Assembly (NCBI RefSeq): GCF_011043775.1
Contig: NZ_JAAKXY010000006.1
Span: 186,001 to 250,000 of the forward strand
Direction: 5' to 3'
From: Natronolimnobius sp. AArcel1
Lineage (GTDB): Archaea; Halobacteriota; Halobacteria; Halobacteriales; Natrialbaceae
DNA: 64,000 bases
Shown here: in pieces, positions 22,498-26,972 of the stretch
How the letters are laid out: each line of letters opens with the position of its first letter
How positions within the stretch are numbered: the first letter of the stretch is position 1
The notes under the pieces: generated by a model
The model's input: only the letters and a program-made list of their open reading frames with translations
What the model was told of the DNA's origin: nothing
Database searches by the model: none
Position numbers and translations under genes: made by a program

Positions 22498-23682
22498 ATG
22501 GCCATGCACCCGCCGGGAGCCGACACCGTCCTCATTCGCCATGGCGACCTGAACACGAAGAGCAACCGGGTCAAACGCCAGATGGAGGGCCTCCTCATCG
22601 AGAATCTCGAGGCGCTGCTCGAGGACCGGTCGATCCCTGGCGAGGTCGAACGACGCTGGAACCGACCGCTGATCCACACCGACGAAGATGCCATTGCGGA
22701 GGCGACCGCGGCCGCGGCGGACGCCTTTGGCGTCGTCTCGGTGAGCCCGTGTGTGACGACCAGCATTGAGAAAGCCCAGATTCTCGAGGCGCTCGAGTCG
22801 ATGGCGCGCGAGTGCTACGACGGCGGCACATTCGCGGTTGATGCCCGGCGGGCGGACAAAACGCTCCCCTACACGAGCGAGGACTTGGCGCGCGAGGGCG
22901 GGACAACTATCTGGGAGGCCGTCGAAGACGAGTTCGAACCCGAAGTTGACCTTGACGATCCTGACCTCACGTTCGGAATTGAGGTTCGCGAGGATATTTC
23001 GTTTCTCTCCCTCGAGACCGTTACCGGACCCGGTGGGCTTCCGCTTGGCGCGCAAGAACCCGTCATCGCGCTGATCAGCGGCGGCATCGACTCGCCGGTG
23101 GCAGCCTACGAGATGATGCGCCGCGGCAGCCCAATCATCCCAGTCTACGTCGACCTCGGGGCCTACGGCGGTATCGACCACGAGGCGCGTGCAATGGAGA
23201 CAGTGCAGACGCTCTCACAATACGCGCCAAACTTCGATATGCCGGTGTACAAGGTACCGGGCGGAGAACTCGTCGACTTGCTCGTCACCGAAATGGAACA
23301 GGGCCGGATGCTCTCGCTGCGGCGATTCTTCTACCGCACCGCCGAGGTACTTGCCGGACGCGTCGACGCCCACGGAATCGTCACGGGCGAAGCGGTCGGG
23401 CAGAAATCGAGTCAGACGATGCAAAATCTCGCGGTGACCAGCCGCGCCACCAGGCTTCCGATTCACCGCCCGCTGCTCACTCGCGACAAACAGGAAATCG
23501 TTGCGCAGGCACGCGAAATCGACACCTACACGCAGTCGACGATTAACGCCGGCTGCAATCGCGTCGCTCCCGATCAGGTCGAGACCAACGCTCGACTCAA
23601 ACAGCTACTCGAGTACGAACCCGACGACCTGCTCGAGCGCGCCGAGGCGGTCGCAAGCGATGCGGAACTCGTTGAGCCTTAG
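22498..23682 (+). CDS. thiI: tRNA 4-thiouridine synthase ThiI
   Basis: A 394-residue protein. The N-terminal ferredoxin-like and THUMP part (residues ~1-175; IRHGDLNTKSN, FAVDARRADKTLPYTSEDL) binds tRNA. The PP-loop SGGIDSPVA near residue 194 activates U8 by adenylation. GEAVGQKSSQTMQNL and INAGCNRVAP follow. There is no C-terminal rhodanese domain, as usual for archaeal ThiI, so sulfur comes from another route. The last 21 codons and ~135 nt of downstream DNA are repeated about 1.1 kb further on, after the GGGPS-like gene. Confidence 0.96.
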   Translation: MAMHPPGADTVLIRHGDLNTKSNRVKRQMEGLLIENLEALLEDRSIPGEVERRWNRPLIHTDEDAIAEATAAAADAFGVVSVSPCVTTSIEKAQILEALESMARECYDGGTFAVDARRADKTLPYTSEDLAREGGTTIWEAVEDEFEPEVDLDDPDLTFGIEVREDISFLSLETVTGPGGLPLGAQEPVIALISGGIDSPVAAYEMMRRGSPIIPVYVDLGAYGGIDHEARAMETVQTLSQYAPNFDMPVYKVPGGELVDLLVTEMEQGRMLSLRRFFYRTAEVLAGRVDAHGIVTGEAVGQKSSQTMQNLAVTSRATRLPIHRPLLTRDKQEIVAQAREIDTYTQSTINAGCNRVAPDQVETNARLKQLLEYEPDDLLERAEAVASDAELVEP

Positions 23683-23813
23683 CAGAGTACGTCTAGAACG
23701 TTCGGAACTTTTGCTCAAAAAGTATTACTTGAACGCTTTTTGGTGGTAATTCAAAGGAAATCCGTAGGCAAACATCGGGCAACAACAGGTTTCGAACCTT
23801 TGATATCTCTTAA
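23615..23813 (+). repeat. Direct repeat copy 1: thiI 3' end plus downstream DNA
   Basis: Starts inside thiI at ACGAACCCGACGACC and runs past the stop through GTAGGCAAACATCGGG. Pairs with 24723-24920. The coding part differs only at synonymous positions, the non-coding part carries more substitutions and small indels (roughly 85% identity by eye overall). Confidence 0.85.
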
Positions 23814-23872
23814 CAGGTGTTTATGCTGCTGTAATGTGGTTTGTTCAGCTCATGTTTTTAATTCGATGACCT

Positions 23873-23890
23873 AAATAATATAAATACTAA
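23873..23890 (+). promoter_or_regulatory. AT-rich promoter region of the GGGPS-like gene
   Basis: TAAATAATATAAATAC and further AT-only stretches precede the ATG at 23935 by 45-60 nt; a second TATA-like AGAATATATG is at about 23903-23912, ~25-30 nt before it, and is the better-placed candidate. Confidence 0.45.
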
Positions 23891-23934
23891 TTAGTATAGG
23901 TGAGAATATATGAGTTAATCCTGTACAGTCACCC

Positions 23935-24702
23935 ATGCAGATCGATTGGACCGGAATTGACCACGTAACGAAGGTCGATCCGGAAAAAGCAATGCCGTCG
24001 AATTCGGAATCGCTGCTCACTGCAACGGACCTCGTGATAGTCGGTGGCTCTGACGGTGTCACCGAGAAAAATGCCATGGCGACCATCGAGGCGGTTCGCG
24101 ACGCCGTGCCAGATGTACCAATATTCCAGGAGCCCTTTCGCTCAGATCAGGTGTCAATGGATACGATCAACGCCGTCGACGTTCTCTCGATTGCAGCCGT
24201 CTATAACGGCGACCGTGATCACTTCGTCGGCAAGCACCTCTCGATGTACTCCGAGTTAGCGAGCAAGCCGTCCTCGCTACTTGGAACGAATCTCCCGATT
24301 GTTGGTAACGTAATTGAATCGAAGGGCGAGACGGTTCTTGAAAATGTTACTGAGAAAATCGTTGGTGAGGGCTACGTAATTCAGAACGTCGATTCGGCCG
24401 CAGCCACTACTAGTGGGGTAACGGAACCGCTTACGACCGAGGAGGTCGCAGGCGCTGCCCTCGCTACCGAGACGTTCTACGACTTCCCCATCTTTTACGT
24501 CGAGTACTCCGGGACCTACGGCGGCTCCGAGGATGTCACAGCCGCGGCGAACCACCTTGATGAAACCGTCCTCCTCTACGGCGGCGGCATCGACTCCGCA
24601 GCCAAGACCGAAGAAATCATCAATGCAGGGGCGGACGCAATCGTCGTCGGTGACTGCTTCCACGACGACCCCGATAGCTTCCTCGAAACGATCCCTGAGT
24701 AA
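23935..24702 (+). CDS. Geranylgeranylglyceryl-phosphate synthase-like protein (PcrB/GGGPS family)
   Basis: A 255-residue TIM-barrel protein. HVTKVDPEK near the N terminus matches the HITKLDP segment of GGGPS; VIVGGSDGVTEK, IVGNVIESKGE, FYVEYSGTYGG (the YxEYSG prenyl-site motif), LLYGGGIDS and AIVVGDCFHDD (phosphate-binding loops) follow in order. The family joins geranylgeranyl-PP to sn-glycerol-1-phosphate, the first ether bond of archaeal lipids. The sequence is divergent and longer in the middle than the usual haloarchaeal enzyme, so it is more likely an accessory paralogue, perhaps with another prenyl or polyol substrate. Lies between two thiI 3'-end copies and is AT-richer than its neighbours, which suggests acquisition. 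Confidence 0.85.
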   Translation: MQIDWTGIDHVTKVDPEKAMPSNSESLLTATDLVIVGGSDGVTEKNAMATIEAVRDAVPDVPIFQEPFRSDQVSMDTINAVDVLSIAAVYNGDRDHFVGKHLSMYSELASKPSSLLGTNLPIVGNVIESKGETVLENVTEKIVGEGYVIQNVDSAAATTSGVTEPLTTEEVAGAALATETFYDFPIFYVEYSGTYGGSEDVTAAANHLDETVLLYGGGIDSAAKTEEIINAGADAIVVGDCFHDDPDSFLETIPE

Positions 24703-24722
24703 GTCCAAGAGTTGGCAGCATC

Positions 24723-24920
24723 ACGAACCCGATGACCTGCTCGAGCGCGCCGAGGCGGTCGCAAGCGATGCGGAACTTGTTGAGCCTTAGCAGAGAATGT
24801 CTATAACGTTCGGCACCTCTGCTCGAAAAGCAGTATTTGAACGCCTTGCGGTGGCTTTCAAAAAAGTCCGTAGGCAAACATCGGGATAACAACGGTTCCC
24901 GAGCCTTTGAATGTCTTCTA
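24723..24920 (+). repeat. Direct repeat copy 2: duplicated thiI 3' end
   Basis: Begins ACGAACCCGATGACC and continues in parallel with copy 1 through the thiI stop and GTAGGCAAACATCGGG. It starts 20 nt after the stop of the GGGPS-like gene, so the two copies flank that gene tightly. From 24921 to 25086 nothing recognisable is seen. Confidence 0.85.
24725..24790 (+). pseudogene. thiI: thiI C-terminal fragment
   Basis: Encodes EPDDLLERAEAVASDAELVE and the final P then TAG, identical in protein sequence to the ThiI C terminus, without the rest of the gene or a start codon. Confidence 0.85.
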
Positions 24921-25086
24921 ATTCTCCGTTGAACAACTCGATAGTTGACATATATTGGCCGGTCGTGGTCAATACAGGTAACGCACGTATCGTTAAGTAC
25001 AGAGGATGAACTGACCATCGAGAGGCTATGACCATATCACTCGTGTACCTGATTTTGTAGAACGCGGAAGGAGCGATTACATTGCT

Positions 25087-25908
25087 TTAGTCTGACTGAG
25101 TTTGTTCCGAACGAGGGTCGTCCGGGACGAACCAGGACGGAAAACCATCAGCGGGTGCTGATCGTTCTGCGTGAAACCGACCTCGTTCAAGAGCAAGTTT
25201 TAGCGTCACAAACAGCGCGTAAGGGAGCACCCCCGCCAGTGAGTCTGAAGAGATGAATTCTGCAATCAGCAGTCCGACGAAAAACACAGGAATCAACATC
25301 ATGAGCCCACCCAAATAAATAAGGATAAAGCGGGCGGGTAACTCGAGTATGCTGTACGCTGACATCTCCTTGTATTTTTGCGGGCGAATGTAGATCCGAT
25401 AAGTAGTAGCGATATGAATGGCGATAAATAATAACGCCGTTCCAAATAGTGATGGAGAGGTTAACACTGAAAAGTTTGCGAGGAATGCCTCAGGATTACC
25501 TACTGTGTGTCCTGGCATCCCTTCGCCCGGAGTTCTTTCCAGTAGTGCGGCTCCAAGCACGAAACTTGCAAGCACGATAAAGACACCCGTCGGGATGATT
25601 ACTCGTAGATTCCGCGGATAGATCGGAGGAAGCGGACCAATCGTTCGAGGCGTATCACTCCAAAACTGATCTCCAAGGGGCTGGATAAGGATCTGCTGCT
25701 CCCGCTCTTCGTAGTGACTCCGTCGCTGGGCAAACAGAGCGCAACCGCAGTACACGAGCCACAATGCTACAATATCGACCCAGTAGAGCAGGAAAACAGC
25801 AGTATATCCCCAGCTGAATACGAAGTATCCGACGACCGGTAGCAAGTTGGCGAGGGCTATCGCGCCGAACTTGAAGTGGTCGCCCTCAGTTCGTTTCTTG
25901 TTCTCCAT
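25087..25908 (-). CDS. Multi-TM membrane protein, DUF6498-like
   Basis: A 273-residue protein with about six TM helices (FGAIALANLLPVVGYFVFSW; YTAVFLLYWVDIVALWLVYC; LRVIIPTGVFIVLASFVLGA; LFGTALLFIAIHIATTYRIY; LPARFILIYLGGLMMLIPVF; LLIAEFISSDSLAGVLPYAL). NLLPVVG, FLLYWVD(I/N) and a late FVTLKLALE recall DUF6498 haloarchaeal proteins; this is a by-eye match. Hydrophilic termini. Function unknown. It sits in the AT-richer pocket between the thiI duplication and an IS remnant. Confidence 0.7.
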   Translation of the reverse strand: MENKKRTEGDHFKFGAIALANLLPVVGYFVFSWGYTAVFLLYWVDIVALWLVYCGCALFAQRRSHYEEREQQILIQPLGDQFWSDTPRTIGPLPPIYPRNLRVIIPTGVFIVLASFVLGAALLERTPGEGMPGHTVGNPEAFLANFSVLTSPSLFGTALLFIAIHIATTYRIYIRPQKYKEMSAYSILELPARFILIYLGGLMMLIPVFFVGLLIAEFISSDSLAGVLPYALFVTLKLALERGRFHAERSAPADGFPSWFVPDDPRSEQTQSD

Positions 25909-25999
25909 TCAAGCTATAATATAGACTGATGATTATGCTATCATATACTTTGATACATTCTGACGACGCTTCCAGTAAGAAGAGATCCTGTACTGATCG

Positions 26000-26447
26000 T
26001 TAGAGGGCCCGGTCGAGATTATGGACGATACACGCAAGGGCGAGTTCACGAAACTGCTTCTACCAGCGTCGAGAACGAACGAGGGTCGAAGTCCAAGGCG
26101 TCGATACCCGCAATACCGCTAGTTGGAAGCAGTGAAACAAAGAGAGTGAGAAGCACCCGCTAGACTGCCATATCGAGTCTATCGAACGCGTTGTACAGCG
26201 TTGACGTGGCAGGAAGTTCAGTGAGGGTGATCGCGTTTCGAATACGAGGAATTTCGATGAGTTCGTTAAGTGTTCGATAGGTCGTACTCTTCCGAACTTT
26301 GAGACGTAACAGAACAACGTGCTGATGAAGCGTGTACGCTGTTTCGAGTACTTTGAGGAATCTCGTGAGACTGCTTGCTGGGCAAATGAAATGCTTGCTC
26401 GGCAAATCGGAGCAATCGAGACTTTGGGAGAGTCTGCATCTAGACAA
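26000..26447 (-). pseudogene. Decayed IS5-family transposase
   Basis: The N-terminal half reads LHQHVVLLRLKVRKSTTYRT, IEIPRIRNAITLTELPATST and FDRLDMAV, typical of haloarchaeal IS5-group transposases. A TAG replaces the expected Trp codon after LDMAV; the frame then continues RVLLTLFVSLLPTSGIAGID to LVEAVS. A +1 shift and the loss of most of the catalytic domain lead to KQFRELALACIVHNLDRAL and a stop at 26000, which is the normal C terminus of the family. No DDE core remains, so the element is dead. No clear terminal inverted repeats were found. The flanks at 25909-25999 and 26448-26618 hold no gene. Confidence 0.8.
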
Positions 26448-26618
26448 GCTTCCAACTGAATCTGTAACTCACTACAGATTCCAACAGAGTCGTCGAGCCG
26501 TAAGTCGATGGCACCCGAATGTCCTTCACGACGCCGGGTATAGGTAGATGGCATGGAGACGGCACTCGCCACTGCAGGTGCTGCGAACGGTGTCAACGCT
26601 CGAGGGCGGCCCACGGCG

Positions 26619-26972
26619 TCAGTACGTAATGACTTCGTAGCCGTCAGCAACGAGCGAGCGGATGCTCGGATGGCCTTCGTACTCGTCGAGTTGGTCAGCC
26701 GAACTGGCTTCGATTTCGTCGGCAACGTCGTAGGCGTTCGCACAGTAGTGACACGCCGACATAAGGTCGGTCAGCCCGGCGTAGAGGTCGTGATAGTCGT
26801 GGTTGTCGTCTTTGAGTTCGGGAACCCATTGCGTTCCCGCTCCATCAAAGATAATTTCGACGTCGTCACCTGCCTCGTCGAACTCCTGGGCGGTCTGGAG
26901 TGCGTTGACGACGCGGCCGAGTTCAGCGGGCGAGTCAGTACCGGCGAGTACGACGATAGCTGCGTCTGGCAT
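26619..26972 (-). CDS. DsrE-family protein
   Basis: A 117-residue protein: MPDAAIVVLAGTDSPAELGR, then FDEAGDDVEIIFDGAGTQWV and SACHYCANAYDVADEI. This is the DsrE/DsrF-like fold; the C-H-Y-C pair is in the place of the active cysteine of sulfur-transfer members. It may carry or sense persulfide sulfur, but many haloarchaeal paralogues are uncharacterised. Divergent from hutH with 116 nt between starts. Confidence 0.88.
   Translation of the reverse strand: MPDAAIVVLAGTDSPAELGRVVNALQTAQEFDEAGDDVEIIFDGAGTQWVPELKDDNHDYHDLYAGLTDLMSACHYCANAYDVADEIEASSADQLDEYEGHPSIRSLVADGYEVITY

Follow-up and report, generated by a model that had tools for sequence, protein, structure and literature searches.

The thiI locus and its three gene ends

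The window analysed here, a 64,000-nt stretch of contig C6 of the haloarchaeal genome G000 (4.56 Mb), contains on its plus strand an intact thiI gene (22498–23682), which encodes a protein of 394 amino acids and is the receiving gene of the insert described below. The ThiI, THUMP and ferredoxin-like Pfam domains of the product all score over their cut-offs; the score against the NCBIfam model TIGR00342 is 239 bits, under the model's own cut-off of 264.5. The counterpart in G001, the only congener compared, shares 94% of its amino acid residues. Downstream of thiI follow, in this order, an intact gene for a GGGPS-like protein, a second thiI end, a degenerate transposon and a third thiI end.

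The present 3' end of thiI, designated copy A, comprises the final 68 nt of the gene and 129 nt of flank (23615–23811, plus strand), as detected by repeat search and BLAST. Copy B (24723–24921, plus strand) is a displaced thiI end of 68 nt including the stop codon (24723–24790), followed by flank up to the transposon edge, and is connected to the stop codon of the GGGPS gene by a junction at 24703–24722 (plus strand). The repeat search paired 23615–23746 with 24723–24854 (89% over 132 nt) and 23758–23811 with 24864–24917, while BLAST merged 23615–23811 and 24723–24917 into a single match of 198 columns (85%, E 6e-54). Both copies are in direct orientation, spaced by 1106–1108 nt, and are identical over one stretch of 44 nt. 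Their similarity continues at 78% for about 130 nt beyond thiI and stops where the transposon starts. A 19-mer common to both occurs in the window at these two sites only (0.02 expected).

The coding part of the repeat consists of 22 complete codons, the stop among them, and 2 additional nt. Within these 68 nt only two sites differ between A and B, both synonymously (GAC/GAT and CTC/CTT), and a further difference immediately outside of the repeat exchanges Tyr for His. An earlier note on this DNA had described the direct duplication at a distance of about 1.1 kb as well as the synonymous conservation of its coding part, and both observations were confirmed. In the noncoding flank, 28 of 127 sites differ and 4 columns are gapped, i.e. 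coding and noncoding parts diverged to different degrees (2/68 vs 28/127; Fisher p 2.7e-4). If A had been limited to synonymous change and B released from constraint by a local duplication, about 9 differences would be expected in the coding part as compared to the 2 seen (P ~0.003 for two or fewer). Since the coding part stayed nearly unchanged while the flank diverged, both copies appear to have evolved as ends of working thiI genes. Most likely, A and B diverged as functional thiI ends in different lineages, a pattern that gene conversion could mimic.

Among 56 thiI-end entries, in which a few genomes are counted twice, A and B are nearest to each other (66/68). The next entry is the thiI end of G001, to which both copies are equally close (57/68 each), so that this comparison, from which the earlier note had hoped to recognise the native copy, marks neither of them as native. 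As no thiI end is nearer to A and B than that of G001, their source lineage is evidently absent from the genomes compared. The flank of A and B points in the same direction: elsewhere in the order only short chance matches were found, in 4 of 391 other genomes; the own genome has no sites beyond A and B; plasmids and phages have none, and the 19-mer of the flank is absent from viral contigs. A dispersed repeat was ruled out by these searches, and a donor lineage that is unsampled would account for them. A structured or known RNA in the flank was likewise rejected: a comparison of 23600–26600 with Rfam gave nothing at E<=1, and the flank folds hardly better than shuffled sequences (z −1.3 to +0.6).

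The native thiI end is instead found further downstream. Positions 26492–26503 (plus strand) read GTCGAGCCGTAA, coding for Val-Glu-Pro-stop, and are followed from 26504 on by native chromosomal DNA. This copy C represents the native end (GTCGAGCCG TAA), truncated by the transposon and collinear with the thiI stop and downstream DNA of G001. The match between window and G001 DNA runs to 23681, where the thiI stop of G001 is located, and restarts at 26490, and in G001 just 12 nt separate the two aligned blocks. The site is thus empty in this single congener, which lacks the GGGPS gene; a search for such an empty site in sister strains had been proposed in the earlier note. No clear identity step that would mark a donor tract was visible within thiI in comparison with G001, the sole congener. 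Beside the native thiI end, a gene for a conserved small protein lies on the minus strand (26619–26972), which has no Pfam match and is about 90% identical to G001 at the DNA level.

The insert accordingly measures 2.8 kb, and the strain has three thiI ends, of which A terminates the functional gene, B follows the GGGPS gene and C is the truncated native end. The earlier note had placed the end of the insert at 24920, which copy C disproves, and it had considered a lipid-synthesis gene to be the only cargo. As the whole insert includes a transposon and three thiI ends, this is true of the first unit only.

The transposon between B and C occupies 24922–26491, with a weak left terminal repeat at about 24922 and a clear right one at 26476–26491. 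It is 80% identical to copies at loci L134 and L135 and lacks about 380 bp internally in comparison with full copies. The latter, L134 in another genome and L136 and L138 elsewhere in G000, have terminal repeats of the GGCTCTGTTGAAATC type and 8-bp target duplications, whereas the sequences flanking the window copy do not match as a target duplication (left TCTTCTAA, right GTCGAGCC). A DDE transposase remnant (25987–26447, minus strand) remains in the window copy; its 95-aa fragment has no Pfam match, and the domain (DDE_Tnp_1, PF01609) was found in the intact transposase of copy L139. These elements come closest to the ISH/IS5-type DDE transposons of haloarchaea, which they resemble in transposase, terminal repeats and, in full copies, the 8-bp target duplication. 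They differ by their varied passengers and, in the window copy, by internal deletion and the missing target duplication. Indeed, the passenger changes from copy to copy of this family with common terminal repeats: a DUF6498 membrane protein in the window (gene at 25087–25908, minus strand) and in L134 (4225–6184), a BAT/HTH_10 regulator together with a DUF7344 protein in L138 (213–2696), a small putative lipoprotein, judged by inspection, in L136 (5238–6673) and a small membrane protein in L139 (4792–6214). We infer that the transposon inserted into the flank following B and came to abut C through an adjacent deletion; recombination between two transposon copies would leave the same appearance.

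Identity and origin of the GGGPS-like gene

The gene between copies A and B (23935–24702, plus strand) encodes an intact protein of 255 amino acids. The preceding region (23812–23934, plus strand) is AT-rich, with a GC content of 0.39 in 23801–24000, and by inspection contains a TATA-like stretch (TATAAATACTAATTAG) at about 23880, which marks a putative promoter. The protein scores 118 bits against Pfam PcrB (cut-off 23.9), matches the NCBIfam model for geranylgeranylglyceryl/heptaprenylglyceryl phosphate synthase and can be aligned over its full length to the A. fulgidus GGGPS (2f6u), including the motifs YVEYSGTYG and YGGGIDS. Genome G000 possesses two more PcrB-family genes, namely a paralog at C3:709903 (60% identity) and the canonical gene at C1:80912. 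The earlier note was hence right about the position of the gene between the two copies and wrong in counting it as the second of its kind, as it is the third in the genome.

In a tree calculated from 58 sequences (82 sequences reduced to 62 distinct ones, of which four over 330 aa, L028–L031, were dropped), the window protein groups with five sequences from genus g12 (support 96/97), while the G000 paralog at C3:709903 groups with its G001 counterpart. Identity to the g12 sequences amounts to 75–77% over the full length, and dN/dS against them is 0.12–0.16, pairwise values that include selection in g12. From the grouping with g12 and the low dN/dS, we conclude that the GGGPS gene is a xenolog, foreign to the genus by its sequence affinity and under constraint. 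More distantly related PcrB-type sequences (34–41% identity) form a separate group (G007:C11:67475–68212, G027:C3:30317–30964 and L028–L031), which in some genomes sits in open frames of 428–493 aa.

A genome in which thiI is followed by this GGGPS gene, i.e. a donor, was not found among the relatives searched; in G012 and G027 both genes are on one contig but far apart. Mobile carriers gave no near relatives either: 19 plasmid records matched with less than 60% identity and 5 phage records with about 30%.

GGGPS paralogs are treated in PMC3533463 and PMC9385802. According to the review PMC9385802, haloarchaeal GGGPS enzymes occur as type IaH1 with a Trp limiter and type IaH2 with Leu, in makers of C20–C25 lipids. 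At the position of this chain-length limiter (W99 in A. fulgidus) the window protein has Met104. The 56 sequences of the window type, this one included, carry L (40), M (9), F (6) or I (1), whereas the canonical-type sequences L032 and L033 carry Trp, and so apparently does the canonical GGGPS of G000 (AHKEWV, by inspection). The window protein resembles IaH2 in being a Group I GGGPS/PcrB homolog beside a canonical Trp-limiter GGGPS and in having a limiter other than Trp. It differs by Met in place of Leu and by being an extra, xenologous copy beside a resident IaH2 gene. We file it as IaH2-like. It probably acts as a G1P prenyltransferase of the IaH2 type alongside the canonical enzyme and the IaH2 enzyme already resident, and it possibly favours C25 chains.

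PcrB matches of any kind were found in 123 family genomes, of which six have only the weaker, IaH2-like type (best E 1e-37 or weaker, compared to 3.5e-48 or better in the remaining genomes): the five g12 genomes G012 and G078–G081, and G022. As these six lack a canonical GGGPS match, the IaH2-like type can apparently stand alone or replace the canonical enzyme.

Displaced thiI ends in a second genus

A search with thiI gave matches in 124 of 125 family genomes. Three of them, G000, G142 and G145, have a further copy of the thiI C-terminus near the gene; the remaining secondary matches fall in other parts of the protein. G142 and G145 belong to genus g6. Here, the displaced thiI end is located 1.93–1.95 kb downstream of thiI (82 nt at 87% and 85 nt at 81%), and the cargo between both ends (L145, L146) is one PQQ beta-propeller gene. 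The repeat starts at about −89/−93 in these genomes as compared to −68 in the window.

In both genomes, the right edge of the region behind thiI holds fragments of an M24-peptidase-like gene, so named from reading the sequence. In G142, a fragment of 108 nt matching this gene is fused directly to the displaced thiI end. Its source gene is located 2.4 kb further downstream, and four nucleotides (CGTC) at the joint are common to the peptidase fragment and the displaced thiI end. The related genome G143 (L148) has the beta-propeller gene without a thiI copy and kept a different fragment of the M24-peptidase-like gene. The presence of a peptidase-gene fragment at the joint points to a chromosomal donor fragment and not to a closed element, and the joint fits a broken donor fragment, comprising thiI, the beta-propeller gene and part of the peptidase gene, that was illegitimately joined to the resident thiI end. 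The displaced copy of G142 agrees with the G143 thiI end at 73/82 sites vs 68/82 for the upstream copy, and with the G006 end at 69 vs 67 sites, which weakly suggests that the displaced copy is the native end.

Scanning 63 regions (918 kb) for duplicated gene ends yielded five rows: thiI in the window, in G142 and in G145, and two fragments from peptidase regions. The last two (L145 and L148, plus strand) were rejected, as they are pieces of the M24-peptidase-like gene translated in a spurious reading frame. As the regions were centred on thiI, GGGPS genes and transposon copies, these numbers are not an unbiased genome rate.

Histories of the insertion

The empty site in G001, the apparently separate evolution of A and B and the foreign affinity of the cargo uphold the central proposal of the earlier note, namely that incoming DNA with a diverged thiI end was joined to thiI, leaving the gene complete. 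Foreign DNA was received at the thiI 3' end at least once and probably twice.

We favour, with reasonable though limited confidence, a repeated integrase-free insertion anchored by thiI homology, i.e. homology-facilitated illegitimate recombination. In this scheme, a related haloarchaeon would have supplied a linear DNA fragment with thiI and a downstream gene. The fragment would pair with the resident thiI by homology, and its far, non-homologous end would be attached by illegitimate joining within the end of the resident gene. Each such event would leave a complete thiI with the donor's end, add the donor's downstream gene and shift the former thiI end further down, where it stays behind as a scar. 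ThiI end A and the GGGPS gene would then constitute the newest unit, B the older scar and C the native one; the transposon with its DUF6498 passenger would have inserted next to B and then probably been joined to C by an adjacent deletion of the IS type. Two features that this proposal involves are seen directly. The homologous anchor is intact upstream, thiI being continuous through copy A into the new DNA, and beyond the new gene lie leftover 3' pieces of the anchor gene, as B and C in the window and as the second thiI end in G142 and G145. No microhomology is visible at the A/B joint of the window, which is too short and decayed.

A comparable process was proposed for the T6SS arrays of Vibrio cholerae, in which successive insertions push old 3' ends back and homology-facilitated illegitimate recombination is invoked (PMC5361080). 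Those T6SS/Rhs loci share with the present one the constant upstream anchor, the new downstream gene, the displaced 3' end as a scar and the stacking of such scars. In V. cholerae, the end of the anchor gene is itself variable cargo under toxin/immunity selection, whereas here a haloarchaeal housekeeping gene, thiI, is fully restored and followed by unrelated cargo.

The 3' ends of genes are common integration targets, and the target gene is restored upon integration. Integrative elements that use such ends are known, and integrase-less, CIME-like derivatives exist. A small element or satellite could have used the thiI 3' end as attachment site with an integrase provided in trans, possibly twice in tandem (attL at A, a hybrid at B, attR at C), and the integrase could have been lost later, e.g. 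through the transposon deletion. We regard this history as unlikely, even though the target is of the usual kind and was restored, the direct duplication marks both edges, the 44-nt identity between A and B would suit an attachment site, three tandem ends fit accretion and an integrase could have been lost where the transposon now borders C. No integrase was found in the window or within 120 kb, the nearest PF00589 match on the contig being about 145 kb away, and the scanned ORFs of the insert contain no integrase domain. The independent insertions have no attachment core in common, as the breakpoints differ between window and genus g6. The similarity of A and B extends far into the flank, unlike an att core, and the G142 joint holds a fragment of a chromosomal gene. 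Moreover, no related element was found in plasmids, phages or the 392 genomes of the order. The circular or mobile element suggested by the earlier note is possible but gained no support, given that an integrase is lacking, the flank is unseen in these 392 genomes and the breakpoints vary. A literature search for thiI as an archaeal integration site returned dndDB and no paper on thiI in this role.

The one-time import of a ready-made array (thiI, GGGPS gene, thiI end and transposon), which would have replaced the resident region by homologous recombination with one crossover in thiI and another in a transposon copy of the recipient, comes next and is rather improbable. It would leave the same DNA and would explain the missing target duplication, since the transposon would be a hybrid of two copies, and movement of whole arrays is described for V. 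cholerae in PMC5361080. Yet the array would still have had to arise in some other strain, and none that carries it is present among the 125 family genomes.

Very improbable in our judgement is a circularised donor fragment, not a true element, that recombined once with the chromosome through the short homologous thiI end, as in the proposal of the earlier note. A circular donor and one crossover would give the same final structure, which counts against the integrase-free joining favoured above; however, the crossover would have had to take place within only 68–90 nt of homology although full-length thiI was available, and the three ends are not explained by it alone. Least probable of all is that the thiI end was duplicated in tandem at its own site and that the GGGPS gene entered between A and B afterwards. 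This agrees with A and B being each other's closest relatives among the 56 entries but predicts that the freed fragment drifts like the flank, against the 2 coding differences seen, unless gene conversion mimicked this pattern, and it also needs separate origins for copy C and the cargo.

Homology-anchored joining without an integrase, to return to the favoured history, suggests gene gain at the end of a housekeeping gene in haloarchaea, as read from the genomes of two genera and from three stacked ends in this strain. Haloarchaea may thus gain single genes without a mobile element, leaving legible scars. Scanning for stacked gene ends of this type could show how frequently archaea gain genes through illegitimate joining anchored by homology. 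The cargo bears on the chain length of membrane lipids, the IaH2-like enzyme being the sole PcrB type in the five g12 genomes. More tentatively, and as a possibility that we rate well below the mechanism itself, the thiI 3' end could be a recurrent integrase-independent docking place in this family, at which single genes from relatives are added and old ends are stacked as a record of transfer. If so, one of these transfers gave the strain a third lipid prenyltransferase, which may alter its C20/C25 lipid ratio.
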